This document shows positions 24,944 through 53,725 of a stretch of DNA of 64,000 nucleotides, piece after piece; within the stretch, counting starts at the first letter, position 1; the number at the start of each line of letters is the position of its first letter. The DNA is taken from the NCBI RefSeq assembly GCF_025244665.1, contig NZ_CP104205.1:310001-374000 (forward strand), in the 5' to 3' direction. Source of the DNA: Maribacter litopenaei (GTDB lineage Bacteria; Bacteroidota; Bacteroidia; Flavobacteriales; Flavobacteriaceae). A program made the position numbers and the translations under genes. The notes beneath the pieces are model-generated. The model saw only the letters and a program-made list of their open reading frames with translations, was not told the origin of the DNA and ran no database searches.

Positions 24944-24986
24944 GCGGTCTGGACGGGACTCGAACCCGCGACCCCCTGCGTGACAG
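24944..24986 (-). repeat. attL: 3' part of tRNA-Asp (GTC), left border of island 1
   Basis: Read on the minus strand this is the 3' half of tRNA-Asp: the anticodon loop with GTC (CTGTCACG), variable region, T arm (GGGTTCGAGTCCC) and acceptor ending CCAGACCG. The 5' half is absent; the sequence after 24,987 turns AT-rich. It matches 53683-53725 at 42 of 43 positions (T at 24950 against C at 53689). It is the classic footprint of tyrosine-recombinase integration into a tRNA 3' end. Confidence 0.92.
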
Positions 24987-25092
24987 GCAGATTTTATTTA
25001 AATTCATATGAATTAAAAAGTCAATAAATACGGGGATTTTCAGGGGTTAGTTGTATCTTTAAGTATATTTAAGACCATAAAAAACCACTTTT

Positions 25093-25113
25093 TGCGTGCA
25101 AACTGCGTGCAAA
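25093..25113 (+). repeat. Left pair of arm-type repeats for the island 1 integrase
   Basis: TGCGTGCAAA occurs twice with 11-bp spacing (25093-25102 and 25104-25113). The same paired motif (TGCGTGCAAT and TACGTGCAAT, 11-bp spacing) lies at the other end of the island at 53614-53634. This matches the arm sites bound by the N-terminal domain of tyrosine integrases. Confidence 0.65.
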
Positions 25114-25139
25114 TTTGCGCGCAGACTTTAACATTTAAT

Positions 25140-26363
25140 ATGGCTACATACATAAAGCTCTCATTGGATAAACGAAGGAAAGATATCAAAATCTTCCCAT
25201 TAATTTTTCGATTGACCCATAATCGAAAATCCACAAGTATAGGTACAGGATACAAATTATCAGCTTCCGAATGGGATGATAAAAGGCAAAAAATTAGGTC
25301 ATCCTTCAAAGGCACAGAATCGCCTTCCCGTCTGAACAACCTTTTGCAAAAGAAAATCGCCCGTATGGTCGATATCCTTGCTAAATTGGAGGAGGGTGAC
25401 AAATTGAAGTATATGAGCGTGTCCGAGGTAAGGAGCCATATTACCCGTACCACAAAAAAGGTGACTTTTTACCAGTTTGCCGAAAAGCAGATAGCAGACC
25501 TAATAAAAGCGAACCGTATTGGAAATGCAAGGGCTTACAAACATGCCTTAAAAGCGGTAAAGAATTTCAGAAACAACAAGGATTTCACATTTGATGAATT
25601 GAATCTCGAATTCCTAAACCGATTTGAAAAGCACCATTTGGCCAAGGGCAATAAACTGGGCGGCCTTAGTGTCTATTTAAGAACCATTCGGGCCATTAAC
25701 CGTAAAGCTATAAAGGCGGGGGTTGCGGACAAGGAAGGATACGCCTTTGACGATTACGTAATACGTAGCGGAAAACCTGAAAAGCGGGCCTTGACCTTCG
25801 ATGCCATTCGCAAAATTGCTTCGCTTGATCTTGAAGAAGGCACGGCTATTTTTAGGGACAGGAATATTTTTATGATGAGCTTCCTGCTCAACGGCATGTC
25901 CTATGTCGATATGGCTCATTTAAAGTTGTCCAACATTGTTGACGGTCGTATCAAATACTCCCGTAAAAAAACAGATGAACCTTACAATATTAAAATCCAT
26001 GACCAACTTAATCCATTGTTATCATATTTTACTGAGGGAAAGAAAAAAACTGAGTATCTATTGGATGTAGTCAAAAGTGAAAATCCAATTGAAAGCTACA
26101 ATCAAATAGTTTGGGCAAGAAAAAGGTTTAACGATAATTTGAAAAAGCTTGCTGAACTTGCAGGAATAGAAGAAAATATAACAAGTTACGCCGCACGCCA
26201 TTCATTTGCTTCGAGTGCCAATGACATGGGAATTCCGCTGACGGCCATTTCCCAAATGTTGGGGCACAAACGCATCAGTACCACACAGGCATACTTAGCA
26301 GGGCTTAGGAAATCCAAAATTGATGAATACCAGGACGAAATTATGGACAAGCTCTCGGGATAG
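25140..26363 (+). CDS. Tyrosine recombinase/integrase of island 1
   Basis: Integrase of the Bacteroidota site-specific type, 407 codons from the chosen ATG (MATYIKLSLDKRR); an upstream in-frame start would overlap the arm repeats. It has an N-terminal arm-binding region, a SAM-like core-binding domain (~95-200; TTKKVTFYQFAEKQIADLI and GGLSVYLRTIRAINRKAI) and the catalytic domain. Catalytic box II is YAARHSFAS, then MLGHKRISTTQAYL with the His and the Tyr nucleophile. Box I reads FLLNGMSYVDMAHL, with Asn where the paralogous island 2 enzyme has the catalytic Arg (YLRGMNWMDMALL). IntDOT of Bacteroides also lacks this Arg, so activity is still plausible. It abuts the tRNA-Asp att site. Confidence 0.9.
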   Translation: MATYIKLSLDKRRKDIKIFPLIFRLTHNRKSTSIGTGYKLSASEWDDKRQKIRSSFKGTESPSRLNNLLQKKIARMVDILAKLEEGDKLKYMSVSEVRSHITRTTKKVTFYQFAEKQIADLIKANRIGNARAYKHALKAVKNFRNNKDFTFDELNLEFLNRFEKHHLAKGNKLGGLSVYLRTIRAINRKAIKAGVADKEGYAFDDYVIRSGKPEKRALTFDAIRKIASLDLEEGTAIFRDRNIFMMSFLLNGMSYVDMAHLKLSNIVDGRIKYSRKKTDEPYNIKIHDQLNPLLSYFTEGKKKTEYLLDVVKSENPIESYNQIVWARKRFNDNLKKLAELAGIEENITSYAARHSFASSANDMGIPLTAISQMLGHKRISTTQAYLAGLRKSKIDEYQDEIMDKLSG

Positions 26364-26789: not shown

Positions 26790-27911
26790 TTAGGTGGTTT
26801 TTTTATAACTCCAAACGGCCAAACCATTCATTACAATTGCATAAGCCAATGTTTTTATGGCCAATGGAAAAATATCGGTAAAGCCGGAACCTTTGAGCAT
26901 TACCATTCGTATAATCTCTACAAAATATTTAATGGGATTGAATTCTGTCAGTATCTGCGCCCATTTGGGCATACTTTCTATGGGTGTAAACAAACCACTC
27001 ATCAAAATAAATATCACGATAAAGAACCAAGCAATAAACATGGCTTGCTGTTGGGTATCGGTAAAGTTTGAAATAAACAAACCCATTCCTAAAATCACCA
27101 GTATATACACCGAAGTATAGCCATAAAGAAGCAGTAGGTTTCCGAGTATGGGCACGTTAAAAATAAATTTGGCGAGAATTAACCCAACGGTCAAGAGTCC
27201 CATACCCAACACCCAAAACGGAAAGAGTTTGCCAATGATAAATTGATATTTTTTTATGGGCGTTACATTAATTTGCTCCAATGTGCCTATTTCTTTTTCC
27301 CTTACAATGTTCATTCCTGATAAAAACAGCGTAATCATAGTAACGAGTAGCACCAAAATACCTGGTACCATAAAAGTTTTGTAGTTGAGGGTTTCGTTAT
27401 ACCAAAACAACGGAATACTCTCTATACTACTGGGTTGCTGAACGGAATCTGAAACCTGTATCAAGTCTGTTGCAATATGTTTGTTATAGTTTCGTATAAT
27501 TTGGTTTGCATACACATTAATGACTCCTGCCGCCGAACCGTCAATGGCATCAATAAATACACCTATTTCGTTGTGCTGGTTTTCCTGTAAATCACGTTCA
27601 AAATTTGTTGGAATGCTGATATACACATCCACACTGCCATCTTGCATTGCAGTATAGGCATCTTTTTGAGAAGAAAATTTTTCTGATACGTTAAAATACA
27701 TTGAAGACTCAAATCGTTCGATTAATCCTCCGGAGGTGCTGCTGTTATCGGCATCCACATAACCAAAAGTTATGTTTTTTATTTCGTAGGTAGCTGCATT
27801 TGACAGAATGACCAATTGTAGGACTGGTAAAATAAAAATGATGGGCAGCATTCCTTTATTTCTAAAGATTTGCTTGAATTCCTTTCTTATGATATACAGG
27901 ATAATTTTCAT
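26790..27911 (-). CDS. ABC-2 type transporter permease (YbhR/YhhJ-like)
   Basis: Inner-membrane subunit of an ABC exporter, 373 residues: an N-terminal helix preceded by IIRKEFKQIFRNKGML, a large periplasmic domain (~45-180), then five or more hydrophobic helices, with the conserved NIVREKEIGTLEQINVTPIKK cytoplasmic loop before helix 3 and LMSGLFTPIESMPKWAQ near the end. It is the last gene of the seven-gene minus-strand operon tetR-tolC-hlyD-cupin-ABC-ABC/permease-permease. By family knowledge YbhFSR-G type systems export drugs and cations; the cargo here is unknown. All genes of this operon are undamaged, in contrast to the nos genes next door. Confidence 0.88.
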   Translation of the reverse strand: MKIILYIIRKEFKQIFRNKGMLPIIFILPVLQLVILSNAATYEIKNITFGYVDADNSSTSGGLIERFESSMYFNVSEKFSSQKDAYTAMQDGSVDVYISIPTNFERDLQENQHNEIGVFIDAIDGSAAGVINVYANQIIRNYNKHIATDLIQVSDSVQQPSSIESIPLFWYNETLNYKTFMVPGILVLLVTMITLFLSGMNIVREKEIGTLEQINVTPIKKYQFIIGKLFPFWVLGMGLLTVGLILAKFIFNVPILGNLLLLYGYTSVYILVILGMGLFISNFTDTQQQAMFIAWFFIVIFILMSGLFTPIESMPKWAQILTEFNPIKYFVEIIRMVMLKGSGFTDIFPLAIKTLAYAIVMNGLAVWSYKKTT

Positions 27912-28003
27912 CGATATAAAAACTAGCTAGACTTTTTGGTTAGGTCTTATTCATGTTGATCAGCAACAAATTTTTTTAAAAATACCCTTTATAGGTTTTC
28001 ATT

Positions 28004-29839
28004 TCATTCGAGCCTAATCTTATATTTTTTAACGCTGATACCCATAAATACTAAAGTCATAGCAAATAAAATCAATGTTTCCTTTAATAGAAAGCCAATA
28101 CCAACCCCTTTGAGCATATTACCTTTAACAATAATGATAAACCACTTGGCGGGAATAATGTTGCTAATACCTTGTAATGGCAAGGGCATACTGCTGACAG
28201 GGAAAATAAATCCGGATAGCAATATGGTGGGCAGCATTAAACCCATAAGGGAAATCATCATCGCGGTTTGTTGGGTTGCCGAAATGGTTGAAATTAAAAT
28301 ACCCAACGCCAATGATGTAATTATAAACAAGATGCTTTCAAACCCTAACAAAAACAAACTGCCCTTTACGGGAACATTAAAAATAAATATACTCAACAGC
28401 ACTATGACAATGGCATTGATAACCGATAAAAAAATGTAAGGAAACACTTTGCCAATAATCACCTGAAAGGGTTTTAAGGGTGACACTAATAAAATTTCCA
28501 TGGTGCCTTGCTCCTTTTCGCGGGTGATGGATATAGAGGTCATCATTGCGGACACCAACATCAAAATAACCGTCATTACACCGGGAACAAACATATACAC
28601 ACTTTTAAGTTCTGCGTTATACACCATACGGATCTGCGGTACAATCTGGTAATCAATAGTCACTTCGTTGTTTAACTCCTGTTGGTAATTTTTAAGGATG
28701 GACGAGATGTAATTACTGATGGTATTTGCCATATTGGGGTCGGTGGCATCGGTCAATATTTGTACGGTTGCTTGCTTTTCTTTAATGAGGTGACGCCCAA
28801 AATTATTTTCAAACTGAAGTACGGCTTTTACCTTTCCTTTTTTGAATATGGATTCTATGGACGACTCTTGTTGAATGATATCTACAATACTAAAATGCCT
28901 TGAAGCAGCAATTTTATTGATGATTTCTTTGGAAGTAACATCATTGGACTGGTCTAAAAGAGCGATATCCACATTGTTGATTTCATTGGTAATTGCAAAA
29001 CCGAACAAAAGGATTTGGGCAATAGGCATCCCGAACAAAATAAACAGTGAACGCCTATCACGGAAAATATGATAAAATTCTTTCCTTACAAAACCTACAA
29101 ATCGTTTCATCCTCTCGGCAAGTTTTAAAAACACATCGTTCATTGTATCTGTTTCATAATGTTCTTTTAACTTTTTGGGTGTGTCCAGGGCTTCGATTTT
29201 TCCATTTACCATTATAGATACACGGTCGCAATATTCCGCTTCGTCCATATAATGGGTAGTTACGAATATGGTAGTGCCATTGTGGGCAGCTTTGTAAATG
29301 AGTTCCCAAAATTGTCGTCTCGTAATGGGGTCAACGCCACCGGTAGGTTCATCTAAAAACACAATTTTGGGTTCGTGCAATAAGGACACCGAAAATGCCA
29401 GCTTCTGTTTCCAGCCCAAAGGCAAGGAGGCCACCAAACTATTGGTTACTTCTTGAAGTCCTAATTCTTCAACCATTTCGCAACGTTTTTGGTCTATTTG
29501 TTTTTTGGACAAGCCGTAAATACCACCAAAAAATGTAATGTTTTCTTTTACCGTGAGGTCATCGTACAAGGCGAATTTTTGACTCATATAGCCAATGTTT
29601 TTTTTGATGGATTCGGTTTGTTTGTAAACATCAAATCCAGCTACTGTGGCTTTGCCCGAAGAAGGGTACGAAATTCCAATAAGCATTTTCATTGCAGTAG
29701 TTTTTCCGGCACCATTGGCACCGAGAAATCCAAAAATCTCCCCAGCTTTTACGTGGAAACTTATTTGGTTTACCGCTGCAAAATCACCAAATAGTTTGGA
29801 TAGATTATCGACTTCTATAACGTTTTGTGCTTTCATCAT
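28004..29839 (-). CDS. ABC transporter: ATPase fused to ABC-2 permease
   Basis: One 611-residue frame holds two usually separate subunits. Residues ~1-245 are an ATPase: Walker A GANGAGKTTAMKML, signature-like LPLGWKQKLAFSVSLL (weakly matching LSGGQ), Walker B KIVFLDEPTGGVDP and the switch His in TTHYMD. From ~246 (MKRFVGFVRKEFYHIFRDRR) a permease follows, with periplasmic domain and helices, loop SITREKEQGTMEILLVSPLK and LLSGFIFPVSSMPLPLQGI. The joint AER-MKRF looks like a former stop/start overlap, so fusion could be genuine or produced by a lost base; the frame is otherwise clean. It overlaps the preceding ATPase gene by 4 bases and pairs with the other permease downstream. Confidence 0.85.
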   Translation of the reverse strand: MMKAQNVIEVDNLSKLFGDFAAVNQISFHVKAGEIFGFLGANGAGKTTAMKMLIGISYPSSGKATVAGFDVYKQTESIKKNIGYMSQKFALYDDLTVKENITFFGGIYGLSKKQIDQKRCEMVEELGLQEVTNSLVASLPLGWKQKLAFSVSLLHEPKIVFLDEPTGGVDPITRRQFWELIYKAAHNGTTIFVTTHYMDEAEYCDRVSIMVNGKIEALDTPKKLKEHYETDTMNDVFLKLAERMKRFVGFVRKEFYHIFRDRRSLFILFGMPIAQILLFGFAITNEINNVDIALLDQSNDVTSKEIINKIAASRHFSIVDIIQQESSIESIFKKGKVKAVLQFENNFGRHLIKEKQATVQILTDATDPNMANTISNYISSILKNYQQELNNEVTIDYQIVPQIRMVYNAELKSVYMFVPGVMTVILMLVSAMMTSISITREKEQGTMEILLVSPLKPFQVIIGKVFPYIFLSVINAIVIVLLSIFIFNVPVKGSLFLLGFESILFIITSLALGILISTISATQQTAMMISLMGLMLPTILLSGFIFPVSSMPLPLQGISNIIPAKWFIIIVKGNMLKGVGIGFLLKETLILFAMTLVFMGISVKKYKIRLE

Positions 29840-30738
29840 TTGGCTAATTCCATAAAGGTATCTTCTATGGTGGGTTGGGTACGTTCAATGTGAATATTGG
29901 TAAGTCCTTGTTGTACTAAATAGGATTTTATTTCCTCAACATTCATTGCTTCTCTCTTATCGGTATAATGCACAAATTCCCCGAAAGGGAAAACACTATA
30001 GGTATGCTCATAATGGGTTAAACTCGTAATTAAGCTGTACATATTAGAAGCACTGATATTATACAGTGGTTTTGGAAAGTGGCCAACTATAGCTTTTGGG
30101 ATATCTATTTCAAGGATTTTACCGCCTTGAATTAATGCGATGCGGTCGCATAAAGCGGCTTCGTCCATATAGGGTGTGGATACCAAAATGGTGATACCTT
30201 TTTGCCGCAAGCGTTTCAGCATTTCCCAAAATTCTTTTCTTGAAACCGGGTCAACGCCAGTTGTGGGTTCGTCTAAAAACAAGACTTTGGGTTTGTGAAT
30301 CAAGGCACAGCTCAAGGCGAGTTTTTGTTTCATTCCGCCCGAAAGTTTGCCCGCTCTTCTATTTTTAAAAGGTTCTATTTGCACATAGATGTCTTTAATT
30401 AAATCGTAGTTTTCCGCTATGGTAGTGCCAAAAATGGTGGCGAAAAAATTTAGGTTTTCCTCAACGGTTAAATCTTGATACAACGAAAAACGTCCCGGCA
30501 TATAGCCTACACTGTTTCTAATGGATTTATAATCGCTCAACACATCAAAACCTGCAACAGTTGCTTGTCCTTTATCAGCAATCAACAGTGTGGTTAAAAT
30601 CCTGAACAAGGTGGTTTTGCCGGCGCCATCGGGACCGATTAAGCCAAAGAGTTCGCCCGGTTTTACATCTAATGAAATATTGGACAAAGCCGTTACCTTA
30701 TCATAGGATTTTGATATATTCTTTACAAGGATTCCCAT
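29836..30738 (-). CDS. ABC transporter ATP-binding protein
   Basis: A 300-residue ATPase: Walker A GPDGAGKTTLFRIL, signature KLSGGMKQKLALSCAL, Walker B KVLFLDEPTTGVDP and H-loop-like STPYMDEAAL, where the usual His is replaced by Pro. The C-terminal tail (~215-300) is the regulatory extension seen in drug-export ATPases. With the downstream ATPase-permease fusion it supplies the two nucleotide sites of a heteromeric exporter like YbhF, which in enterobacteria is a single protein carrying both ATPase domains. The order in the operon is adaptor, cupin protein, then this gene. Confidence 0.88.
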   Translation of the reverse strand: MGILVKNISKSYDKVTALSNISLDVKPGELFGLIGPDGAGKTTLFRILTTLLIADKGQATVAGFDVLSDYKSIRNSVGYMPGRFSLYQDLTVEENLNFFATIFGTTIAENYDLIKDIYVQIEPFKNRRAGKLSGGMKQKLALSCALIHKPKVLFLDEPTTGVDPVSRKEFWEMLKRLRQKGITILVSTPYMDEAALCDRIALIQGGKILEIDIPKAIVGHFPKPLYNISASNMYSLITSLTHYEHTYSVFPFGEFVHYTDKREAMNVEEIKSYLVQQGLTNIHIERTQPTIEDTFMELAK

Positions 30739-31101
30739 TTATTTTATCAATAAAAAATGACTCTTTTTTAGCGCATCAACTTGGTGTTTTACATTGGCTT
30801 CAATAAAGACATAATCGCCTGCTTGTAAAGTTTCTTTAGTGCCATTTTCATCAGAATAAACGGCTTTACCGCTCACGCATACCAAGAATGCCGGTACTTT
30901 GGAAACGTGTTCTTTTAGGCTTTTGTTTTTTTCAATTTGAAGCGAGATTACTTTCTCGTCCGTAGGTTCAAACAAAAGTTGGGTTTGTACGTCTTTTTCT
31001 TGGGTGTGCAAGGTCTTCAAGTTCATCGTAGGGCTATTTTTTACGGTACCGCAACTCCATAAAGTGGCGATTGTTAATGTTATTAATGCTAGTTTTTTCA
31101 T
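30739..31101 (-). CDS. Cupin-domain lipoprotein
   Basis: Start chosen at MKKLALITLTIATLWSC, a lipoprotein leader with lipobox TLWSC; the longer frame to 31134 adds an unlikely charged leader. The mature part is a single small cupin barrel: ISLQIEKNKSLKEHVSKVPA holds the first His, and VSGKAVYSDENG, ETLQAGDYVFIEANVKHQV the second. The metal set is incomplete-looking (HVS rather than HxH), so it may bind a ligand without catalysis. It sits inside the export operon directly before the ATPase gene and after the HlyD gene, on the periplasmic face. Confidence 0.75.
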   Translation of the reverse strand: MKKLALITLTIATLWSCGTVKNSPTMNLKTLHTQEKDVQTQLLFEPTDEKVISLQIEKNKSLKEHVSKVPAFLVCVSGKAVYSDENGTKETLQAGDYVFIEANVKHQVDALKKSHFLLIK

Positions 31102-31112
31102 GGATTCTATAT

Positions 31113-32009
31113 TTAGTTTTTTGAGTTTAACCACATTTCTGCAGGCATTCCTATTTTTAGGCTACCGTCATTTTTTACCTGTATTTTTACGGCATAGACA
31201 AGGGCAACGCGTTCTTCTTTGGTTTGAATGATTTTTGGTGTGAATTCAGCTTGCGAAGCTATCCAGCTAATAATGCCGTCGTACGATTTCACCCCCTCTT
31301 GATCATCGATTTTTACGGTTACGGTTTGGCCAATGGCAATAGATGCCAATTGGGTTTCGCTTACATAGACCCGCAAATCCATTGTTGATAAATCTGCAAT
31401 TTTATAGAGCGGTTTGCCAAAACTTACAATTTCGTTAGGTTCGGCATATTTGGTCAACACTGTTCCGTTTACAGGGTTTACGATCTTGCTTTTTTGAATT
31501 TGGTCGTCTATTTGTAGCAGTTGTATATCAATACCTTTAAGCTCGTTTACCACCGGAGCGTTTTGAATTTCAACACTACGGATGCTGTTTTTTAAAACGG
31601 CGATTTCGCCATTAACATCATCCAATTGTTTTTGCGTTCCGGCGTTGTCTTTAATGAGATTTTCAGTTCTTACCTTATTAGTGTTGGCGGTTCTTAATTT
31701 TGCTTGTAACACATTAATCTGCGACAATACACCTTTAGATTTTGAGGTAATGACCTCTTTTTGTACCAAAAGCTGTTCTTTTTTTAAGTGAAGCGGAATG
31801 GTATCTATAGTACCTATTCGTTTATATTGTTCAATGACCGTACCTTCATCAATGTTAAAAGCTATGAGTTTTCCAGTGTTTTCGGCAGAAATGGTTATTT
31901 CGGTAGCTTCGAAGTTTCCGTAACCATCTGCTTTGTCTCCATTGTCGTTACACGCGATCAGTAGTGTTACAGCGGTGGGTATAAGTAGTATTATTGGTAT
32001 ATTTTTCAT
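31113..32009 (-). CDS. HlyD-type periplasmic adaptor lipoprotein
   Basis: A 298-residue membrane fusion protein: lipobox TLLIAC, lipoyl half-motifs ENTGKLIAFNIDEGTVIEQY and IVNPVNGTVLTKYAEPNEIV, a coiled hairpin (LRTANTNKVRTENLIKDNAG to VVNELKGIDIQLLQIDDQI) and a beta-barrel (VYVSETQLASIAIGQTVTVK). It resembles YbhG-type adaptors that couple ABC-2 exporters to a TolC channel. Gene order (TolC directly before it, ATPases after) supports assembly into one export complex. Confidence 0.88.
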   Translation of the reverse strand: MKNIPIILLIPTAVTLLIACNDNGDKADGYGNFEATEITISAENTGKLIAFNIDEGTVIEQYKRIGTIDTIPLHLKKEQLLVQKEVITSKSKGVLSQINVLQAKLRTANTNKVRTENLIKDNAGTQKQLDDVNGEIAVLKNSIRSVEIQNAPVVNELKGIDIQLLQIDDQIQKSKIVNPVNGTVLTKYAEPNEIVSFGKPLYKIADLSTMDLRVYVSETQLASIAIGQTVTVKIDDQEGVKSYDGIISWIASQAEFTPKIIQTKEERVALVYAVKIQVKNDGSLKIGMPAEMWLNSKN

Positions 32010-32016
32010 GGTTTTT

Positions 32017-33270
32017 CTAGTTTAAATCGCCCTTTAAGGTGTTGTAATTGGCTTTAGCCAGTTCCAGTTGGGTTTTATGTTGGTTAAATTGATTTTCAGC
32101 TTCGAAAAGCTTGGTAAGTTCAATAATGTATTGAGATGTGGTAATGACACCATTTTTTAATTGTGCATCAAAAGTGCGGACAACTTCTTGCTGAAGGGAT
32201 ATTAGTTGTTGGTCGATTGCCATATTACTTTCAAGAGTTTCTATTTCTTTTTGTTGTTCATGTAAGGAGGTATTGGTGTTCAGTCTAAAAACATCTTCCT
32301 GATTGCTGATGAGTTCTTTTGAAAAGTTGAGTGCTTGCCGTTGTTTTTTATTGCCGTTCCAGTCAAACACATTCCAGTTGAGCTTCAACCCAACAATGTA
32401 GTAGGCAGAAAAATCGTTTTCTAAAAAGTTGAGTCCTGGATTGCCCAAACCGCCTGTTGCAAAGGCATTTACTGCGGGTGCTATGGCTTTGGACAAAAGA
32501 TTTTGTTGTTGTTCAATTTCTTGTTTTTTTAGGTTGAACAAGGATAATTCGGGTCGGTTTAAATCCTTAGTTTCTACAATAGAAAGAAACGGTTTTTGAA
32601 AACTGGTTTCTGTATTTAGTGTTACACCGATTAAAGTGGATAAGGATGTGATTAATTTGGATTTAGTATTGGTGGCTTCCTTGTATTGCTGTGTAATTTT
32701 TAATAATTCGGCTTCAATGACTTTATCTGATGTAGGCAGGAGAACCCCATTTTTTACACCCGATTTCACCTCGTTCAACGTGCTGTTCAATTGTTCTTTT
32801 TCGGCGTTTAACAAGAGTAGTTGGTCGTCGATTAAAAGAATAGAGAAATAGAGTTGGTTGACCCGTTGTTTCAATTGGTACAAATTGACCTCGACTTCTT
32901 GTTGTTTTCTTTGGGTACTGCTATTTTGCAACTGTTGGCTCGCCTTAATTCTTCCGCCATTGTATAGCAACTGATTGGCAGTAAGCGTTGTGCGATATTG
33001 GTCGTTGTTCAACGAGTTGATGTCCCCATTGGGGATAGGCACTTCGGTAACCTCACTTTGATAGGTCGCTTGCGCATCGAGGTTGAACTGAGGCAATGTT
33101 TTTGAGGTGATTGCCGAAAGTTCAGCAGTGTTTTGTTGTTCTAAAATTGCGCCTTGCTTTGCCAACGGATAATTGGCTTTTAAACCCTCGTAACAGGCAT
33201 CTAAACTGATGCTGTTTTGGGTATGGCCAACAATTGTTGAAAAGAAAAATACTATCAATAAAAATCTCAT
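32017..33270 (-). CDS. TolC-family outer-membrane channel
   Basis: A 417-residue TolC-like protein with signal peptide (FLLIVFFFSTIVGHTQ). Two OEP repeats are visible: LDACYEGLKANYPLAKQGAI with LNLDAQATYQSE-like first-repeat strands and GTKLNWNVFDWNGNKKQR in the second, joined by long helices (QLKQRVNQLYFSILLIDDQL, EIEQQQNLLSKAIAPAVNAF). It ends LELAKANYNTLKGDLN. It is second in the operon, 4 bp after tetR, and gives the ABC system its exit across the outer membrane. Confidence 0.88.
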   Translation of the reverse strand: MRFLLIVFFFSTIVGHTQNSISLDACYEGLKANYPLAKQGAILEQQNTAELSAITSKTLPQFNLDAQATYQSEVTEVPIPNGDINSLNNDQYRTTLTANQLLYNGGRIKASQQLQNSSTQRKQQEVEVNLYQLKQRVNQLYFSILLIDDQLLLLNAEKEQLNSTLNEVKSGVKNGVLLPTSDKVIEAELLKITQQYKEATNTKSKLITSLSTLIGVTLNTETSFQKPFLSIVETKDLNRPELSLFNLKKQEIEQQQNLLSKAIAPAVNAFATGGLGNPGLNFLENDFSAYYIVGLKLNWNVFDWNGNKKQRQALNFSKELISNQEDVFRLNTNTSLHEQQKEIETLESNMAIDQQLISLQQEVVRTFDAQLKNGVITTSQYIIELTKLFEAENQFNQHKTQLELAKANYNTLKGDLN

Positions 33271-33274
33271 TTGC

Positions 33275-34656: not shown

Positions 34657-34722
34657 ATACAGTATCCATTTGATTTTTGTGTTTGCGTCCACGGTCATGT
34701 GAAGACGTAAAGCACCCCCTGT

Positions 34723-36816: not shown

Positions 36817-36861
36817 ATAATTGTATACTTTTTTTAAATCACATTTTAAATATCAAATACT

Positions 36862-38996: not shown

Positions 38997-39064
38997 TGAA
39001 CCAGGATCATGTTACAATTACTTTCACTTTATATACTATGAGACAACTTTAAATACTATAACCA

Positions 39065-41630: not shown

Positions 41631-41741
41631 TCTATAAAATTTAGTTGGTTGATTGATATAGCGGACGTGAGTATTAACGTACCCGTCCGCTATTCTTTAT
41701 GCCAATTTTAAGGCACTGTTTTAACTAAAAAATAAAGTACG

Positions 41742-45660: not shown

Positions 45661-46436
45661 AATATTGAAATATAGCTTTTTTGACCTAATTCGTAGTCGA
45701 TGGAGCTACGTCTATTTTTTATTTTATCTTTTATTGGGATTTGTACTCTTGTTCCTTAACAACGATGTGTCAAAGGCGGTGATCACATTGATGAATATCA
45801 TCATCGTTTTAGTACCCTTGATAGGCACTATTTTTGGGGTCATGTACTATTATAATTCCAAAGAGTTTACAGAGCTTTTACTGGCCCAACCTATAAAACG
45901 ATCCTCTATTTTTTTAGGGCAATATCTTGGTGTAGCGGGTTCTTTGGCCCTCAGCCTGATTATGGGTCTTGGAATACCCTTTATCCTATATGGACTCTTT
46001 CAAAGTGATGCCATCTTTGATTTTACATTGCTACTGGTTACAGGAGCATTTTTGACCCTTATATTTACAGCACTTTCCTTTAACATAGCCCTTTCAAATG
46101 AAAATAAAATCAAGGGCTTCGGCTATGCAGTACTCCTATGGTTGTTCTTGGCAGTGATATACGATGGGCTGTTTTTAATGTCCCTCATTATCTTTAAAGA
46201 ATATCCCTTGGATACATTTTCTCTCGGCCGCCACCATGATCAACCCGATCGACCTTTCAAGAATTTTAATTTTATTGGAACTTGATATTTCTGCGTTATT
46301 AGGATATACGGGAGCAGTGTTCAAAAAATTCTTTGGTACACAAACGGGTTTGATAATTTCTATTGTAATGTTGGTGATTTGGACGGCTATCCCTTTATGG
46401 TGGTTAACTTACAAAGCAAAGAGAAAGGATTTTTAA
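45653..46436 (+). pseudogene. nosY: NosY membrane permease subunit, one frameshift
   Basis: ABC-2 type permease: YSFFDLIRSRWSYVYFLFYL at the start, then six hydrophobic helices (MNIIIVLVPLIGTIFGVMYY, SLALSLIMGLGIPFILYG, GYAVLLWLFLAVIYDGLFL). The loop NSKEFTELLLAQPIKRSS is the NosY-type cytoplasmic motif. The frame changes near 46,225 (after KEYPLDTFSL); the other frame ends ATMINPIDLSRILILLELD and a final helix IISIVMLVIWTAIPLWWL. It overlaps nosF by 8 bp. Confidence 0.85.
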
Positions 46437-46463: not shown

Positions 46464-47687
46464 TTGAAACATCTCCAAAAACATATCCGGATAGCTTTGA
46501 CCTATTTTTTGGCGGCAGCGATGCTTGGTGTACTTTTACGATTCTTTTCTTTGGCAAGTTTTGAATTCGATTATAGGTATGTTGTACATGCCCACTCGCA
46601 TATTGCCTTATTGGGATGGGTTTATATTGCCTTGACCACAATTATTTATAAACTATTTTTGGAAAAGGGGCAAATAACTAAGAAATATAGGCGGCTTTTC
46701 GGGTTTACCCAAGTGACAATTATGGGGATGTTACTTACTTTTCCTTTTCAGGGATATGCCCTTTTCTCCATATTGTTTTCCACCCTTTTTCTATTCGCCT
46801 CTTATCGATTTCTATTTCTTTTTGAAAAATACGCCAAAATTGATAATGAACACGGACTATCCTTTAAATGTTTAAGGTGGGCACTTTGGTACATGGCCCT
46901 TTCAAGCTTGGGACCTTGGGCCTTGGGCGGAATTATGACCAATCTTGGCGTCCAATCCATATGGTATCGCCTAGCCATTTATTTCTATTTGCATTTTCAG
47001 TATAATGGATGGATGGTTTTATCCTTGATTGGACTTTTTGTATACGTGCTAGAGCAAAATAAACTGATAATTCCTAAAAGGAAAATCGGATTCTTTTTCC
47101 GGGGCCTCAATGCAGGAATTGTACTTACTTATTTTCTTTCCGTTTTGTGGATAATGCCCCCCACTTTTTTTTACATACTGGGAGGTTTAGGAGCATTACT
47201 TCAGATAGGTGGCATTTTGGTATTGGTCGATATCAATATGAGCCATTTCATCCAAAAATTTCTATCCCCGTTTCAATGGCTACTACTTAGGATAGTCCTT
47301 TTGCTTTTTTCAATAAAAATGTTGCTTCAACTCGTGACGGCGTTTCCTTACTTTGCAAATTTAGCGGCAACGTATCTCGACTTTACGATTGGTTATCTAC
47401 ATTGGACTTTTTTAGGCGTAATTACCGTAGCTATATTTTTTCTTTTGGATTATTTCCGATTGTTGAAAATTGATAAAAGTACTTTCATTGCCTTCTTTAC
47501 AGGATTTTTTACAATGGAGGTATTGATTTTCTATAAGGGTATTTCAGGATGGTTAGGTCTTCCCGGCTTTGATCTTCATATCTTGTTCTTAGCGGTGGCA
47601 AGTTTGGTCATCGCGTTAAGTATTATGATAATGCTCGGAAATTTAGAAGCGCAAAGGTCGATAAGAATCCATAATGTCAATTATTAA
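46464..47687 (+). CDS. Polytopic membrane protein with three His motifs (NnrS/haem-copper oxidase-like), last nos gene
   Basis: A 407-residue protein with about twelve hydrophobic helices; start codon TTG at 46464. Conserved-looking His clusters occur in HAHSHIALLGWVYIALTTII, YFYLHFQYNGWM and FTIGYLHWTFLGVITV. These recall the haem-binding lines of haem-copper oxidase/NorB subunits and NnrS, but no full binuclear motif set can be identified, so NO reductase activity cannot be claimed. The gene lies 27 bp after nosY on the same strand and closes the cluster. A role in NO tolerance or electron supply is a fair guess. The frame is intact. Confidence 0.6.
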   Translation: MKHLQKHIRIALTYFLAAAMLGVLLRFFSLASFEFDYRYVVHAHSHIALLGWVYIALTTIIYKLFLEKGQITKKYRRLFGFTQVTIMGMLLTFPFQGYALFSILFSTLFLFASYRFLFLFEKYAKIDNEHGLSFKCLRWALWYMALSSLGPWALGGIMTNLGVQSIWYRLAIYFYLHFQYNGWMVLSLIGLFVYVLEQNKLIIPKRKIGFFFRGLNAGIVLTYFLSVLWIMPPTFFYILGGLGALLQIGGILVLVDINMSHFIQKFLSPFQWLLLRIVLLLFSIKMLLQLVTAFPYFANLAATYLDFTIGYLHWTFLGVITVAIFFLLDYFRLLKIDKSTFIAFFTGFFTMEVLIFYKGISGWLGLPGFDLHILFLAVASLVIALSIMIMLGNLEAQRSIRIHNVNY

Positions 47688-47785: not shown

Positions 47786-50092
47786 CTATATGAATAGCCT
47801 TACACATTGAACCTTGTATTTTGACCAATTCGTAAATTCATCCTTGAACCCGTTGTAGACTTCTTCGGTTTTCTTGCCCCTACCGCCCAATAGCGAATTA
47901 ATGGCGTAAACACCCTGCTTAAGCAAACGGTTTTGTTGCATACTGGTTTTTCGTTCGATTACCTGGTTCATATACTTTCGAAGGCCGTTGTCCATATGAT
48001 GTTGAACCACTTCACGGTGCAAGTTGGGATGGACATTCTCAATTGTCAGCATATATGCGAACTTATCGTATAGCCCCCTTTCCATTAAATTACCTGCCCA
48101 TAGGTTTTCGAGCTTGTTTCTGCCTTCTTCTACAAGCTTTTTGATTAATGGCCGTTGCCCTTGTAATGTTGTCGCCAAATCGGGAATCGAACCCGGATAC
48201 TGGCTCGTCCGTTTCGGCAGGATACAACTTGTTTTGTTGTCGGTATAAATCGATTTTACCTCGAACCCTTTTTCTCCCCTTACGAAATAGAACCCTTTGG
48301 CATTGAACAGGGCGATATAATCTTTCGCCGATTTCTCGAAAGGTGCGTGCATACGCTCGGCATTTTTTATATACGAACCCAGGGCGACACTCTCGTATTG
48401 CTTTTTATAATCGGGATTCATTCTATCATACAGTTTAGGAAAAATCATCGGCAGGAAAATGGCCGATGCCGTCAACTTGGAACTGTTCTCGGAAGACTGT
48501 TCCGATAGCATTTCGAGCATCAGATGGTTTTGGCGGACAAAACCTGAAGACACATATTTTTCCATTTCCTTGGGAAAAGTTAGATTGCCCAAATTAACGG
48601 GTACGATATACTTGTCCGATTGGGTAAAGGACAATTGGTTGTCATGGTACTTTACGCCCAAAGCTTGGAACAATAGACGGATACTTCCCTTTTCCGTGCC
48701 GACATTGAAAATACCTTTCTCCAATACCTTGCCTATAAGTTTGAACTTTTTCTCCAAGGTTTCCTTTTCCTTTTTGGTCTCCTGTTCGTACATCTTTTTT
48801 CTGACCATTGGGAATTCATTTTCCATGGCTTTTCTGAACTCCACCCTTTGGTTCCGTGGAATAAAACGCTCCAAGAATTGATACCTTTCCGAGGCCAACA
48901 AGTTCGGAACGATATCCTTGAACTGCATATTCCCGATATGTTCCGATAGCAACCCGCTCTGCTTCGGGGATTTCAGATAAGATGTCGTCAATGCCTCTTT
49001 TATTGTTTTTTGGACTTCCAATCCGAACTGTTTGCTTTCGATATTGATTTGAGTCGGTTCATTGCCCTGCCCGAAAATTTCCATGCGGTTCTGCATCCGA
49101 ATATTTTTGCCAAGTTCCCTTGCCTTGAACACATATCGTGATTTGTCATAGATGGTATATCCCTCCATAACATCTTCCTTTATGTCCAGTTTGATGTCGA
49201 TGTCCTGATATTCCTTTAGCACGGCTTCCAGATCATGCGGACGGATGATTTGGAAAAGGTCGTAAGTGGTCTCTATTTGTTTCAATAGTCGTTTTCGGTA
49301 CATCGGCAAAAGCTTCGATTTTGAATGTACATCGAATACTTTTTGAAGTTTTGGGCCGCTCAATCCTCTATGCACCTCGGAGCCATTGATGAATCGTGTT
49401 TTATACCCATTTTGGTTATTCAGCCCATATGCGACCCCAATCCTTCCCGTTTCACTTTTGGTCTGTCTTACTTCAATATGATACCGTTTTACCAATCGTG
49501 CAAGTTCATCAAAACTGCGCACCTTGTACTTTTGGTTAATGCTGTTCAGGACATCCTGTAGATAGTACTTAGTTCCCTTTTCCGCTTCCGTTCCGAACTG
49601 TTCTTCCGGTAGTCGGTATATCGGTAACTGGCTTGTCTGTTTTTTGGTCGGTGCAGGTGTAAGTCCGTACTTTTTTTCGAGATGTTGCCGTATCGCCATA
49701 CTCCTTTTATGGCTATTGAAGATTTCCAACACCTTTCCATCTTCTTTTACAGTAGTGGTTACAATATGTACATGCTCGTGCTTGGTATCGTTGTGACGTA
49801 CCACTACATAGGGTTGATTCCCAAAGCCCATATTTTTCATATACTCCTCGGAGATTTTATAGAAGGTCCTATCGTCCACATGTTCGCCACGGGGAAGGTT
49901 CAAACTGATATGGGCATACCGGTTCTTCGTAGAGTTTCGCTGTCCTTGAAAATACAGCACGCTCGCGAAGAATTTTGGGGATATGCTTTGGGAAAACGTA
50001 TTTCCATAGCCAAGAATTTGCATACCTTCCTTTCCGAAGACATAGTTCAATGTTCCGGTACAGGTTTGGCCGTAAATAATCTTTGCTATCAT
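47786..50092 (-). CDS. Relaxase/mobilization nuclease
   Basis: About 768 residues from the chosen Met (MIAKIIYGQTCTGTLNYVFG); the longer frame to 50131 is unlikely because the Met at 50092 overlaps the mobC stop (ATGA). It has the MobP/VirD2-type fold: an N-terminal Tyr-bearing region (YVFGKEGMQILGYG), YAHISLNLPRGEHVDD, and the three-His metal site HNDTKHEHVHIVTTTV (~residues 98-113). It nicks oriT and pilots the DNA strand. The long C-terminal part (~200-768) is charged and of unknown fold. Together with MobC it makes island 1 mobilizable. Confidence 0.88.
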   Translation of the reverse strand: MIAKIIYGQTCTGTLNYVFGKEGMQILGYGNTFSQSISPKFFASVLYFQGQRNSTKNRYAHISLNLPRGEHVDDRTFYKISEEYMKNMGFGNQPYVVVRHNDTKHEHVHIVTTTVKEDGKVLEIFNSHKRSMAIRQHLEKKYGLTPAPTKKQTSQLPIYRLPEEQFGTEAEKGTKYYLQDVLNSINQKYKVRSFDELARLVKRYHIEVRQTKSETGRIGVAYGLNNQNGYKTRFINGSEVHRGLSGPKLQKVFDVHSKSKLLPMYRKRLLKQIETTYDLFQIIRPHDLEAVLKEYQDIDIKLDIKEDVMEGYTIYDKSRYVFKARELGKNIRMQNRMEIFGQGNEPTQINIESKQFGLEVQKTIKEALTTSYLKSPKQSGLLSEHIGNMQFKDIVPNLLASERYQFLERFIPRNQRVEFRKAMENEFPMVRKKMYEQETKKEKETLEKKFKLIGKVLEKGIFNVGTEKGSIRLLFQALGVKYHDNQLSFTQSDKYIVPVNLGNLTFPKEMEKYVSSGFVRQNHLMLEMLSEQSSENSSKLTASAIFLPMIFPKLYDRMNPDYKKQYESVALGSYIKNAERMHAPFEKSAKDYIALFNAKGFYFVRGEKGFEVKSIYTDNKTSCILPKRTSQYPGSIPDLATTLQGQRPLIKKLVEEGRNKLENLWAGNLMERGLYDKFAYMLTIENVHPNLHREVVQHHMDNGLRKYMNQVIERKTSMQQNRLLKQGVYAINSLLGGRGKKTEEVYNGFKDEFTNWSKYKVQCVRLFI

Positions 50093-50475
50093 GCTGGTTT
50101 TTCTACCATCGTAATTTTCAATAGTGTGCAAAGCAATTCGTTCGTTTTTTGTATCTCGTTCTGCAAACTACTGTTCGGACTTCTCAGGTTCTTGTGGTGT
50201 GCTATCTTGACCAATTGGTTGATGTTGTTTCCGATTTTGTTGATTTGATAGGCAAGGTTAGAGGTGTCCGGAAGCCTGTCCTTTTCTTCGGATATGCTTT
50301 GCAAAACCAATCTTCTCAAAAGTGGACTTACAACGCCCCTTTTAGAAATATCCAGATGATATGATTCGCAAATCAACCTCAATTTATCATATTCCGTATC
50401 GTTGAACCGCAGCATTACATTATGGAATCGCTTCTTGTTTCCCAGTCGTTTCCTGCCTCTTTTATTTTGTTCCAT
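50089..50475 (-). CDS. MobC-like relaxosome protein
   Basis: A 128-residue basic protein: N-terminal RGRKRLGNKKRFHNVMLRFN (ribbon-helix-helix-like start), then LRRLVLQSISE and NLAYQINKIGNNINQLVKIA, which is the conserved MobC/relaxosome motif. It helps the relaxase open the oriT strand. It overlaps the relaxase gene by 4 bases. Upstream (50476-50700) lie inverted repeats typical of oriT. Confidence 0.88.
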   Translation of the reverse strand: MEQNKRGRKRLGNKKRFHNVMLRFNDTEYDKLRLICESYHLDISKRGVVSPLLRRLVLQSISEEKDRLPDTSNLAYQINKIGNNINQLVKIAHHKNLRSPNSSLQNEIQKTNELLCTLLKITMVEKPA

Positions 50476-50498
50476 TTTAGTTGCGTTTTAAGCAAAAC

Positions 50499-50561
50499 AC
50501 TTCGCAAGAAGTAGACAATTCTAAGTTACTTAGAATGTACCTCGCTATCCGTTTCACGGAT
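50499..50561 (-). other. Candidate oriT: three adjacent inverted repeats
   Basis: Three hairpins in 63 bp immediately upstream of mobC: ACTTC-GCAA-GAAGT (50499-50512), ATTCTAAG-TTA-CTTAGAAT (50518-50536) and ATCCG-TTTCA-CGGAT (50547-50561). Clustered inverted repeats next to mobC/relaxase genes are usual at transfer origins; the nic site cannot be fixed by reading. Confidence 0.5.
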
Positions 50562-50689
50562 AAATATATATAATCATATTCGATTTCAACTAGTTTATAA
50601 TCAGTTATTTAACTCCTAAAAACATATGAAACCATATCAATATAAATGGGTACAGGCATGAAATTAAAATGGTCTAATATGGTGTTTAA

Positions 50690-50930
50690 AAAATGGGAAG
50701 AAATACGGAAGTGTTCAAGTTTTTGTGGGTAGGGAGAAAAAAGGTAAAGCGGCTTTTTCGCCGCTTTTGCTTTTACGCATTCCGAGGATGTCGTGCAAAA
50801 CTGGAACGGAAAGAATTCACGGGCGGACCGGCGAAGCGTGTCCGAACGGAAGGATGGGAGTGGAAGGTTTGTGCGACTTCCGTAGGGCGGAAGTATAAGA
50901 AGACTAACTTGATAACATAGAAACTTTGAT
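50690..50930 (+). other. GC-rich structured intergenic segment
   Basis: Between mobC and the small mob-associated gene this stretch is markedly richer in GC than its flanks. It has a hairpin AAAGCGGC-TTTTTC-GCCGCTTT (50746-50767) and a second ACTTCCG-TAGGG-CGGAAGT (~50,877-50,895). An open frame of 75 codons runs through but looks random. Possibilities are a small RNA, part of oriT, or a replication/regulatory site. Confidence 0.35.
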
Positions 50931-51078
50931 TATTCTACTATAGCTTTATAGCTATATTCCTATAATCATATGCTCATTTCATCATTTGTCCATATGAAGA
51001 TTTAAAATTGGGAAAGTTGGCTTCTTTTTTAGTAACTAATTGTTACAGAAGCAAGGTCTATTAAATTGGTTTGTAGAT

Positions 51079-51324: not shown

Positions 51325-51326
51325 AG

Positions 51327-51596
51327 TCAAAAAGTTTCTCGGGCGTGTTTTTCGATATATTCCATAATTGATTCCCTATCGTAAAGTATGATTTTCTTTT
51401 GGGGCTGGGAGAACCTAATCTTCCCCTCGTCCCTCAGCTTTTGGAGTGTCGTAGTCGACTTGATACGTAAAATGGACATGGCCTCTTCACCATCGATCCA
51501 TCTGTCGAGCGTATCCTGTCTTTTCGATTCTACATGTTCGATAACCTTAGTGAACAGGGCATAAAAGGCTTCTTCTTGTAGACAGACGACTTGCAT
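51327..51596 (-). CDS. Helix-turn-helix excisionase-like DNA-binding protein
   Basis: An 89-residue protein with a MerR/Xis-type winged HTH in the second half: RWIDGEEAMSILRIKSTTTL QKLRDEGKIRFSQ, then YDRESIMEYIEKHARE. Proteins of this type in Bacteroidota elements act as excision factors or as activators of mobilization genes. Its place at the right end of the island, away from the integrase at the left, fits the layout of many tRNA-integrated elements. Confidence 0.8.
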   Translation of the reverse strand: MQVVCLQEEAFYALFTKVIEHVESKRQDTLDRWIDGEEAMSILRIKSTTTLQKLRDEGKIRFSQPQKKIILYDRESIMEYIEKHARETF

Positions 51597-51622
51597 AGGT
51601 TCTTGAAAAGAAAATTGAATAT

Positions 51623-51880: not shown

Positions 51881-51885
51881 TTATT
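51838..51885. repeat. Four-copy 12-bp tandem repeat after the AlbA_2 gene
   Basis: Units TGCAATTTATAC, CGCAATTTAATC, CGCAGGTTATCC and CGCAACTTTATT follow each other with an exact 12-bp period, spanning the stop codon of the adjoining gene. Twelve-base units add or remove four residues without changing frame. Confidence 0.7.
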
Positions 51886-53359
51886 CAGTATTCGTACTGT
51901 CCAAGATTTGTTTAATAGTATCCTTTAGAAAATACCCTCCTGTCTTTTTACTGCCCCTGTATTCAATAAAATCTCCGAGCCTATTAATATCAGATGTTAT
52001 CGTTCTTTCGGATACATTAAGTACTTCTTGTAGCTCAGTCGATTTAATGCCGGGGTTACTATAGGTTTTGGCAACAAGCGTAATCAAACGGTTTTTTACT
52101 CCCCCAGTTAATCCCTCAATTGCTCCCTCAATTGCTCCCTCAATTGCTCCTTCATTAGCTCCACTAGTTCCTCCATTATCTACTCTTCGAACAGGAATAG
52201 GAATTATAGTTTTAAAAGTAGCTCCCTCAATAAATTGAGGGTTATCCTTTCCCGAATAGGCTTTAATATACTTGTTCACATTGAGGATTCCCGAACCTAG
52301 TTCATCAAAGCGGCCCAATTGCATAAAAAACTTGGCGATGGACGGGTTTTTGGGAAAAGGTGAAAAATCAATCGGTGAGATAACCCCTTCTCCATGCGGA
52401 TTGTTCGCATTCTCGGTTTCGACCCTATCCCTATAAATAATGAAAGTGGCCGGCTGAGCATTGGTATATTCGCGATGCACAATCATATTCACGATAATTT
52501 CCCTGAAAATAATTCCTCGTAAACTTCTTCGTTGTGTGCCTTCTAAAAAGAAAGGATCCGAAAGATGTTTTTCAACGAAATCCATCAATTCGTCGTACGC
52601 ATCAATTAGATTGGTAGTACAGTACAAACGGTCGTCATAACGCTCAACATTATCTTTGCGTACCAAAGCATCGATTTTATAGTGTGGTAAAATTTGCTGT
52701 ATGGTTTCGTCTTTACCAAATAGCAAAATGGCTGCCAATGTGTATCCTTCTTTACCAGTGGCATAGTCCTTTTTCCAAAGCCCGGCTTTTTGCAACAAAT
52801 GTTCGTCCGAGAGTGATAACCACGGATGGTTTTGATTATTCCCCCGAATCAATTTCCTTGCTCGCATGAACAATTCCGAATTAAAATCAGAAAGCTGTAC
52901 AAATGGATAAATCGTACCCTCAGAATAATGGTTGCGTTTTCTATTATAAATATCCGCTATTAATTGTGGCTCGGGAATCTTAAAATCCCCATCACTACTT
53001 CTGTCAAAAATATAGCCTGCGCTTTTGTGCATTTGGGAACTTGCTGGCACCTGGATATGAATTACCGTTTCATCCCCAATTTCATATTCTTGGGGGAATA
53101 GTATAAAAGGAGGTTCCAATTTATTGGCATTGTTAGAGAGCGTGATCAAATTACTTTTGAGTTCTTCGACCTTCATTTTATCTACTCCAGTAACAACACC
53201 GCTATCATTTACGCCCAAAACAATATCCCCGCCGTCTCTATTGAGCATGGCGCAAATGGACTCAAATAGGTTTTTGGGCAGCTTTGACCGAGATTCCTTG
53301 AATTCGGTTCTAGTACCCTCGCCCTGCTCGATAATATGTTTTAGCCGTTCTAGAAGCAC
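51881..53359 (-). CDS. AlbA_2-domain putative DNA/RNA-binding protein (RecG-like annotation family)
   Basis: A 492-residue protein with an N-terminal AlbA_2/Schlafen-type domain (EFKESRSKLPKNLFESICAM and GDIVLGVNDSGVVTGVD). A middle HATPase-like/transducer region follows (RRSLRGIIFREIIVNMIVHR, HGEGVISPIDFSPFPKNPSI, FMQLGRFDELGSGILNVNKY), then a short GAIE tetrapeptide repeat linker (~410-428), and a winged HTH (SNPGIKSTELQEVLNVSERT). These proteins are often labelled RecG-like but have no helicase motor. Many stand in mobile elements and defence islands as regulators. Here it is the last gene before the right border. Confidence 0.8.
   Translation of the reverse strand: MLLERLKHIIEQGEGTRTEFKESRSKLPKNLFESICAMLNRDGGDIVLGVNDSGVVTGVDKMKVEELKSNLITLSNNANKLEPPFILFPQEYEIGDETVIHIQVPASSQMHKSAGYIFDRSSDGDFKIPEPQLIADIYNRKRNHYSEGTIYPFVQLSDFNSELFMRARKLIRGNNQNHPWLSLSDEHLLQKAGLWKKDYATGKEGYTLAAILLFGKDETIQQILPHYKIDALVRKDNVERYDDRLYCTTNLIDAYDELMDFVEKHLSDPFFLEGTQRRSLRGIIFREIIVNMIVHREYTNAQPATFIIYRDRVETENANNPHGEGVISPIDFSPFPKNPSIAKFFMQLGRFDELGSGILNVNKYIKAYSGKDNPQFIEGATFKTIIPIPVRRVDNGGTSGANEGAIEGAIEGAIEGLTGGVKNRLITLVAKTYSNPGIKSTELQEVLNVSERTITSDINRLGDFIEYRGSKKTGGYFLKDTIKQILDSTNTE
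52113..52160. repeat. 12-bp tandem repeat encoding GAIE units
   Basis: CCCTCAATTGCT occurs three times in a row, followed by a diverged copy CCTTCATTAGCT. On the minus strand it encodes the linker (GAIE)n before the winged HTH of the AlbA_2 protein. Slippage would change linker length but not frame. Confidence 0.85.
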
Positions 53360-53613
53360 TTTGTATTTCAGTTTTGATAGTACAAAACTAGCTATAATTT
53401 ATTGTTGTGTCTATAGCCGCAGAAGTTAGTGTAGCTGAAATGTAAGGCTGTTTGTGATAAAAATATGCACCTCAGGTGAATTTTTTGATAATTAAAGAAT
53501 TTCAGTAACCACTAATAGATTACTTAAGCTTAGTTGAGATGCAATTGTCTCTCCATCAATTGATTATTACTAATTTACCAAATTAGATAGATGGAAAAAA
53601 TATACCCTCTACA

Positions 53614-53634
53614 TGCGTGCAATCTACGTGCAAT
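53614..53634 (+). repeat. Right pair of arm-type repeats for the island 1 integrase
   Basis: TGCGTGCAAT (53614-53623) and TACGTGCAAT (53625-53634) with 11-bp spacing repeat the motif at 25093-25113 next to the left border. They lie 49 bp from the right att core. Confidence 0.62.
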
Positions 53635-53682
53635 AGGGTGAAACAAAAAAGCCTCCACATCTGTGAAGGCCTTATTTTACTG

Positions 53683-53725
53683 GCGGTCCGGACGGGACTC
53701 GAACCCGCGACCCCCTGCGTGACAG
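53683..53725 (-). repeat. attR of island 1 / attL of island 2: 3' part of tRNA-Asp
   Basis: Second 43-bp tRNA-Asp 3' end, 42 of 43 identical to 24944-24986. The 5' half of the tRNA is missing here too. A hairpin-like AAAAAAGCCT sequence precedes both copies. Beyond it lies a second integrase gene, so this repeat marks the junction of two tandem islands. Confidence 0.9.

Follow-up and report, generated by a model that had tools for sequence, protein, structure and literature searches.

Can the capacity to respire nitrous oxide (N2O) move between bacteria as the cargo of a mobilizable island, and is this what a nos gene cluster in the marine bacterium Maribacter litopenaei represents? The cluster lies in the window, by which we mean the whole stretch of 64,000 nucleotides that was analyzed (contig NZ_CP104205.1, positions 310,001 to 374,000), and an original prediction made from the letters alone had placed a complete clade II nos module inside a single 28.8 kb island bounded by tRNA-Asp repeats. 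We found that the element with the nos genes occupies positions 24944-53725 of the window (~28.7 kb) and has tRNA-Asp 3'-end repeats on both sides. From comparison with related genomes, we are confident that it is an integrative mobilizable element (IME), here called IME-A, with an exchangeable clade II nos cargo, inserted at tRNA-Asp beside a second element, IME-B. A canonical Bacteroidota IME with exchangeable N2O-respiration cargo is the best reading of this locus, with excision and transfer as predicted properties.

The borders of IME-A were defined by the repeats at 24944 and 53683, which are 78% identical over an 86-nt alignment and differ by one mismatch in the 43 nt at the tRNA end, as the predicted 43-bp repeat implied. 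The longest exact repeat is 36 bp (24951-24986 and 53690-53725, spacing 28,739). When the window was scanned with up to three mismatches, the repeat was present at these two places only, and it was found in none of 100 shuffled sequences. ARAGORN detected only a tRNA-Leu in the window, and neither repeat copy is a tRNA gene. On the other hand, a third genomic copy (C1:395396-395431) lies within an intact tRNA-Asp(gtc) gene (L005:13487-13563, which is C1:395387-395463), outside the window and 31.7 kb to the right of the second repeat. Since there are three tRNA-Asp repeats and one intact tRNA 31.7 kb to the right, we conclude that two elements stand in tandem, IME-A between att1 (24944..24986, minus strand) and att2 (53683..53725, minus strand), and the 31.7 kb IME-B from 53683 to C1:395431, leaving the window and ending at the tRNA. 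The repeats at both borders were correctly foreseen. No tRNA gene lies at 53683, and IME-A is the outer of two elements; we therefore rejected a single 28.8 kb island ending in a tRNA at that position. Insertion that leaves the tRNA intact is common for IMEs, though not required, and here the elements are inserted at the 3' end of a tRNA-Asp that is intact beyond the second element.

The sequence of the tRNA itself points to the order of these events. Its acceptor stem has a single allele across 29 relatives' loci, whereas in the intact tRNA-Asp of the M. litopenaei genome (G000) both members of one acceptor-stem base pair are changed. The changed base on the 3' side is present in att2, while the outermost copy, att1, retains the T of the relatives. 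This pattern would be expected if att1, a displaced tRNA-Asp 3'-end fragment, were the 3' end that was originally in the chromosome, with the elements having arrived with their own, and the base change on the 5' side looks compensatory. A terminator-like hairpin precedes both att copies in the window (24909-24941 and 53641-53673), and the elements seem to provide a terminator for the restored tRNA.

IME-A and IME-B each possess a separate tyrosine integrase beside their own left att: intA (25092..26363, plus strand; Arm-DNA-bind_5, SAM_5 and Phage_integrase domains) and intB (53863..55086, plus strand; domain match). Among the open reading frames (ORFs) of IME-B that were scanned, which are not all of its ORFs, we identified a P-type ATPase, RND and CusB/HlyD-type proteins, a multicopper oxidase, an AbiEi/AbiEii pair, intB, a relaxase and mobC. 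The relaxases of the two elements are 81% identical, and att1 shares 40 bp exactly with att3, the copy in the intact tRNA. Both observations would fit joint movement of the two elements as a single 60 kb composite, from att1 to the intact tRNA, a reading compatible with our own, but we consider it unlikely given the separate integrases and an element at tRNA-Asp in another Maribacter genome, G305. There, two tRNA-Asp repeats enclose a relative of IME-B, with no IME-A. At its ends it aligns with IME-B over 1.5 kb (84%), 5.6 kb (86%) and 0.7 kb (94%), whereas about 24 kb of the IME-B cargo has no match in it, so that, judged by alignment, it is the IME-B chassis with other cargo. In a separate observation, G314 encodes an integrase 89% identical to intA (L320:12567-14150) beside an apparent different tRNA 3' end, suggesting that the target site has changed within this integrase family.

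If IME-A is an IME rather than a fixed chromosomal region, it should carry its own mobilization genes, and the original prediction of an integrase, an Xis-like gene, MobC and a relaxase was borne out by domain matches. The relaxase (47786..50092, minus strand) is of the MobA/VirD2 (MobP-like) type, PF03432, with Bacteroid_MobB as its nearest NCBIfam model, under the cut-off of that model. At higher coordinates lie mobC (50089..50475, minus strand; domain match), a relaxosome accessory protein gene, and the gene of an HTH_17 protein (51327..51596, minus strand) that is likely the excisionase. IME-A thus combines the canonical IME features of a site-specific integrase with flanking att direct repeats and of its own relaxase with MobC. 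Upstream of mobC lies an 86-nt noncoding block with stem-loops (50486..50571, minus strand), in line with the predicted origin of transfer (oriT). It recurs in related elements at 80-98% identity. Compared across 14 elements, 59/86 columns are invariant and the majority base has a mean frequency of 0.93; this mean is 0.85 for mobC over its first 300 nt and 0.56 farther upstream. Folded as single-stranded DNA, the block is more stable than 200/200 shuffles (z -3.9). We regard it as a candidate oriT.

No conjugation genes were found between att1 and att2 among the ORFs scanned, with some ORFs outside the scan, in keeping with the predicted lack of conjugation machinery. We rejected a self-transmissible integrative and conjugative element (ICE), since neither a mating pore nor a coupling protein was found among the ORFs scanned inside. 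The sole TraG homologue of the genome is located ~2.5 Mb from IME-A (C1:2850657) and matches TIGR03783 over the cut-off; such a homologue is present over cut-off in 16/36 Maribacter genomes. In the mechanism that we propose, IntA and the HTH_17 protein would excise IME-A as a circle, and the relaxase, together with MobC, would make its nick in the conserved block that precedes mobC. Transfer would then use the type IV secretion system (T4SS) of a co-resident conjugative element, for which the element with the TraG homologue may be the helper. After entry, IntA would insert the circle at tRNA-Asp, with the element providing the tRNA 3' end.

The cargo that would travel in this way is a clade II nos module, as originally predicted. 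NosZ (39731..41644, plus strand; both ends of the gene out of frame) scored 788 bits against a cut-off of 625 with TIGR04246 (Sec) and 269 against 625 with TIGR04244 (TAT), and is of the Sec-dependent (clade II) type. Downstream on the plus strand are a membrane protein that we take to be NosB-like and that has no family match, nosL and a pyridoxamine-phosphate-oxidase-like protein (41965..43287), followed by nosD, nosF and nosY (43710..46285). The NosL and NosD models were matched, an ABC ATPase and an ABC-2 permease occupy the places of nosF and nosY, and the NosD model is above cut-off in G307, a Maribacter genome with closely similar nos genes. Upstream of nosZ are a c-type cytochrome gene with a broken frame and a fasciclin-domain protein (38491..39640, plus strand). 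A small ORF, a TonB-dependent receptor and a lipoprotein-like ORF precede these (34279..37548, plus strand); the best model for the receptor is TonB-copper, at 117 bits and under its cut-off of 472. Relatives of these three occur in 17, 19 and 17, respectively, of 80 named nos loci (80 retained of 587 found, with up to 10 kb per side, in a collection that may omit genomes very near the source genome). A multi-membrane protein at 46464..47687 (plus strand) has no Pfam or NCBIfam match and has relatives in 37 of the 80. For nitrite reduction, NirK gave only a weak match in G000, falling on the IME-B multicopper oxidase, and is over cut-off in 2/36 genomes. The NirS domain model had no match in G000 or G307, and a single one in G320, which scored 18.9 bits by itself and, when its neighbours were included, 38.3 bits, over the cut-off of 25.5. 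By these models, G000 is without a recognised NirK or NirS, a statement that covers these two nitrite reductases.

An insertion site that is used by mobile elements should vary among relatives, and the absence of such polymorphism had been named beforehand as an outcome that would count against the original prediction. Across the 36 Maribacter genomes, the tRNA-Asp motif occurs zero to three times: once in 30, twice in G308, three times in G000 and G305 (with one G305 copy on the other strand and with one mismatch), and it was not found in three. The 5' side of tRNA-Asp matches G000 in 29/29 relatives' loci, whereas the 3' side is hypervariable, with the 28 comparable relatives' loci falling into 17 groups (30 left sides formed 19 groups, from which G000's own and one that was too short were excluded). 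Among the 22 compared genomes that have both prs and tRNA-Asp on one contig, the two lie 21.6 to 165.2 kb apart. Variation appears to extend beyond the element, to 13-25 kb of the window, because the retained matches of G299 and G303 end at ~12.9 kb and, in G300, G307 and G319, no match to the window was obtained with the 20 kb on the left of tRNA-Asp.

A counterpart of IME-A was found in G320, which has a collinear nos element on two contigs, in support of the claim that N2O respiration could be transferred by the IME route. Contig C78 matches 25069-38989 at 92.7% and 39194-44011 at 78.0%, and C246 matches 43885-51795 at 87.7%; the two overlap by ~127 bp in window coordinates and both stop before the att sites. 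Identity to IME-A is 99% for the integrase, 100% for the HTH_17 protein, 91% for MobC and 86% for the relaxase. The tRNA-Asp of G320 is on another contig and has 49 bp identical to the att1 region. The nos genes of G307, on the other hand, lie in a 31.6 kb unit between 47-bp repeats of a tRNA-Asn 3' end. The integrase of this unit is 32% identical to IntA, and the unit also encodes a different PF03432 relaxase, a DUF6730 protein and an HTH_17 protein. The tRNA-Asn motif is present once in 24 of the 36 genomes, two or three times in nine, and was not found in three, including G000.

A sliding comparison of IME-A with G320 and G307 in 500-nt steps indicates that IME-A is a mosaic of G320-like and G307-like DNA. 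The left part, up to ~38.3 kb, is nearest to G320 (82-99%), while 38.4-39.8 kb is 98.4-98.8% identical to G307. The segment at 39.9-40.9 kb is again nearer to G320 (93-96%) than to G307 (85-88%), and 40.9-45.9 kb is 97.8-99.6% identical to G307 in the sliding comparison (97.4-99.6% in alignment). At two core markers, G000 has an identity of 83-86% to G307 and of 80-86% to G320. Because the nos DNA is far closer to that of G307 than these core markers are, we conclude that a recent exchange of the nos core took place, presumably through homologous recombination of nos regions and in either direction. Such recombination would have put DNA like that of the tRNA-Asn IME in most of the IME-A nos core, or the reverse. 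Misassembly of the G320 draft is possible; for G000 and G307, the nos region lies within long contigs. A broader proposal is that Maribacter nos sets ride on two or more unrelated IME chassis, among them those at tRNA-Asp and tRNA-Asn, and that homologous recombination shuffles the sets between these chassis, such that N2O removal follows mobile elements more than species; we advance this tentatively, as an idea that falls somewhat short of probable.

To place these elements in context, we compared the distribution of nosZ with phylogeny. A nosZ match was found in 144/299 family genomes, some of them distant or partial (G128, G208 and G234 at 36-37%), and in 15/36 Maribacter genomes. On a two-marker species tree of the 19/36 genomes in which both markers were long enough, the nosZ label requires seven changes, compared to a mean of 6.6 for shuffled labels, so presence is scattered, with no clustering beyond random on this tree. 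G300 and G313, the nearest to G000 (support 94/98), are without nosZ. The nosZ tree covered all 15 genus copies. We found no nos genes at tRNA-Asp without repeats or an integrase: six of the 14 other genus nosZ copies are at least 117 kb from the motif on their contig, and the other eight are on contigs without it, where no distance is obtainable. Neither of the two refuting outcomes named beforehand came out against the original prediction. When 13 nosZ neighbourhoods were compared, the loci of G302, G310, G316, G322 and G330 agreed in location on both flanks, and those of G304, G317 and G329 shared a second location, mainly on the left side. The nosZ genes of G319, G315 and G303 have unique flanks (with that of G303 cut by a contig end), and that of G323 is on a 3.6 kb contig. 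IME carriage of nos is not universal in the genus.

What carries our reading is three tRNA-Asp repeats with one intact tRNA; the integrase, HTH_17 protein, MobC and relaxase; the oriT block in 14 elements; the constant 5' side and variable 3' sides of tRNA-Asp; the collinear G320 element and the IME-B relative with other cargo in G305; the att1 allele; a nos identity to G307 above that of the core markers; the lack of nosZ in G300 and G313; and the TraG homologue. Several observations weigh against it. Neither an excised circle nor transfer was observed, and the TraG homologue has one internal stop. The G320 element is split, with the att ends absent from its two contigs. The left flank of IME-A was the same in no relative compared, so that the exact empty site was unseen. 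Only 3/15 nosZ copies in the genus were shown on such elements, and the eight in common neighbourhoods had no integrase, relaxase, MobC or HTH_17 query match in ~40 kb. Finally, several cargo genes have broken frames in this assembly, namely those for cytochrome c, NosZ (both ends), the NosB-like protein, NosL, NosD and NosF.

The broken frames in nosZ, nosD, nosF and the cytochrome gene would fit a decayed former IME that integrated once and is now immobile, with nos kept or decaying. A review (PMC5704250) likewise describes the tandem partners of IMEs as generally decayed elements. However, the frames of the integrase, relaxase, MobC and HTH_17 protein are open in the assembly, and the integrase is near-identical in another species (G320). 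In an alignment of 38300-46200 to G307, we counted ten indels not divisible by three, two of them at alignment ends; nosD and nosF have one splitting indel each. Six of the eight internal indels have a run of at least three identical bases within 6 nt, a weak criterion that lends weak support to error over decay. The frame breaks are likely sequencing errors, because the essential and nearby dnaE (L005:16884-19858) is equally broken and nosZ, nosD, nosF and nosY are open in G307; on account of dnaE, we rejected gene decay as the first explanation. We consider the decayed IME, which overlaps with the favored reading, somewhat less likely still than the 60 kb composite; given such overlaps, the likelihoods of these readings do not sum to one. 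An ancestral nos set in Maribacter with mobile genes inserted nearby by chance is very improbable: eight of the 15 nosZ copies do lie in two common neighbourhoods, but the G000 set is inside att repeats, the G307 copy is within another att-bounded element, DNA identity between the two is far above that of the core markers, and the label changes on the tree are close to the shuffled mean. The dnaE gene is broken up into four ORFs, which points to assembly errors in a genome that is a single contig of 3.86 Mb with 81.7% completeness.

IME-A with its nos cargo resembles known Bacteroidota IMEs in its mobility genes. According to PMC5704250, all five of NBU1, NBU2, Tn4555, cLV25 and Tn4399 have a MobP relaxase, cLV25 and Tn4399 have one accessory protein, and NBU1, Tn4555 and cLV25 have a tyrosine integrase. 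They have no T4SS of their own, and for four of the five the mobilizing elements are ICEs that have VirD4 and the Bacteroidetes mating pore. IME-A similarly has a MobP-like relaxase and a tyrosine integrase, with no T4SS found, but differs from these IMEs in its size of 28.7 kb (most IMEs are 5-15 kb, ~50 kb at most), its respiratory pathway cargo, its marine Maribacter host and its tandem position with a metal-efflux IME.

The original prediction knew of no Bacteroidota IME carrying nos genes. None was described among the open-licence PMC matches listed, a set that leaves most subscription papers and preprints outside, whereas nos genes on plasmids and islands are known. In Castellaniella, the available parts of PMC11046850 report nos beside a tRNA gene where islands are exchanged and the incoming island has copper genes, and one metagenome-assembled genome with its nos operon in a predicted genomic island. 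Unlike IME-A, this case is in Proteobacteria, the island replaced nos, and a nos IME with mobilization genes is not described in those parts. On plasmids, 144 records match nosZ and 58 of these are typed conjugative or mobilizable, so nosZ is again on mobile DNA; the nearest plasmid NosZ is 63% identical (Tunicatimonas and Hymenobacter), a comparison by NosZ alone, and we rejected a plasmid close to known ones on this basis. Thermus thermophilus has nitrate-respiration genes on a plasmid-borne nitrate conjugative element, which places respiration genes on mobile DNA as in IME-A, but nosZ is in 0/23 Thermus genomes of the study concerned (PMC10989939). The excerpts of a Rhodanobacter paper (PMC8809349) do not mention a nos island, and those for Maribacter dokdonensis (PMC8072126) only mention nitrous oxide detoxification genes.

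Since closely similar genes lie on other islands in related species, the N2O-respiration trait can probably be passed between bacteria on such islands. Nitrous oxide is a strong greenhouse gas, and marine Flavobacteriia with clade II nosZ are among the main N2O-reducing populations of eelgrass sediment, as reported in PMC6440730. If IMEs do spread nos, transfer as well as growth can alter the N2O sink of a community, and predicting N2O reduction from species identity is unsafe.

The 80 named nos loci had no match to the IME-A relaxase or MobC, and four had an integrase match. Among the 299 family genomes, with at most three relaxase candidates scored per genome, relaxase matches above 40% outside G000 that share a contig with nosZ are at least 180 kb away (G191, G258, G201 and G080), and the rest either lie on a different contig from nosZ or belong to genomes with no listed nosZ. 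A second conserved noncoding block (50700..50900, minus strand) has a mean majority of 0.81 in 14 elements, with 59/201 columns invariant. IME-A also encodes a Schlafen/AlbA_2 domain protein (51881..53359, minus strand; domain match) and an efflux set (26790..33886, minus strand) with a TetR regulator, an outer membrane efflux protein, HlyD, ABC ATPases and ABC-2 permeases. The Pfam scan of this set left out 29836-31134, and it includes a small ORF that is presumably cupin-like. Elsewhere in the genome, at L143/L144 (C1:3615000-3654800), we found a third relative of the relaxase (63% identity) and an HTH_17 homologue (91%) that lies close to a tRNA-Met, at ~0.3 kb. A broken relaxase and mobC remnant (L113:16245-17006) adjoins the nos genes of G319, and this nos set is perhaps a former IME passenger.

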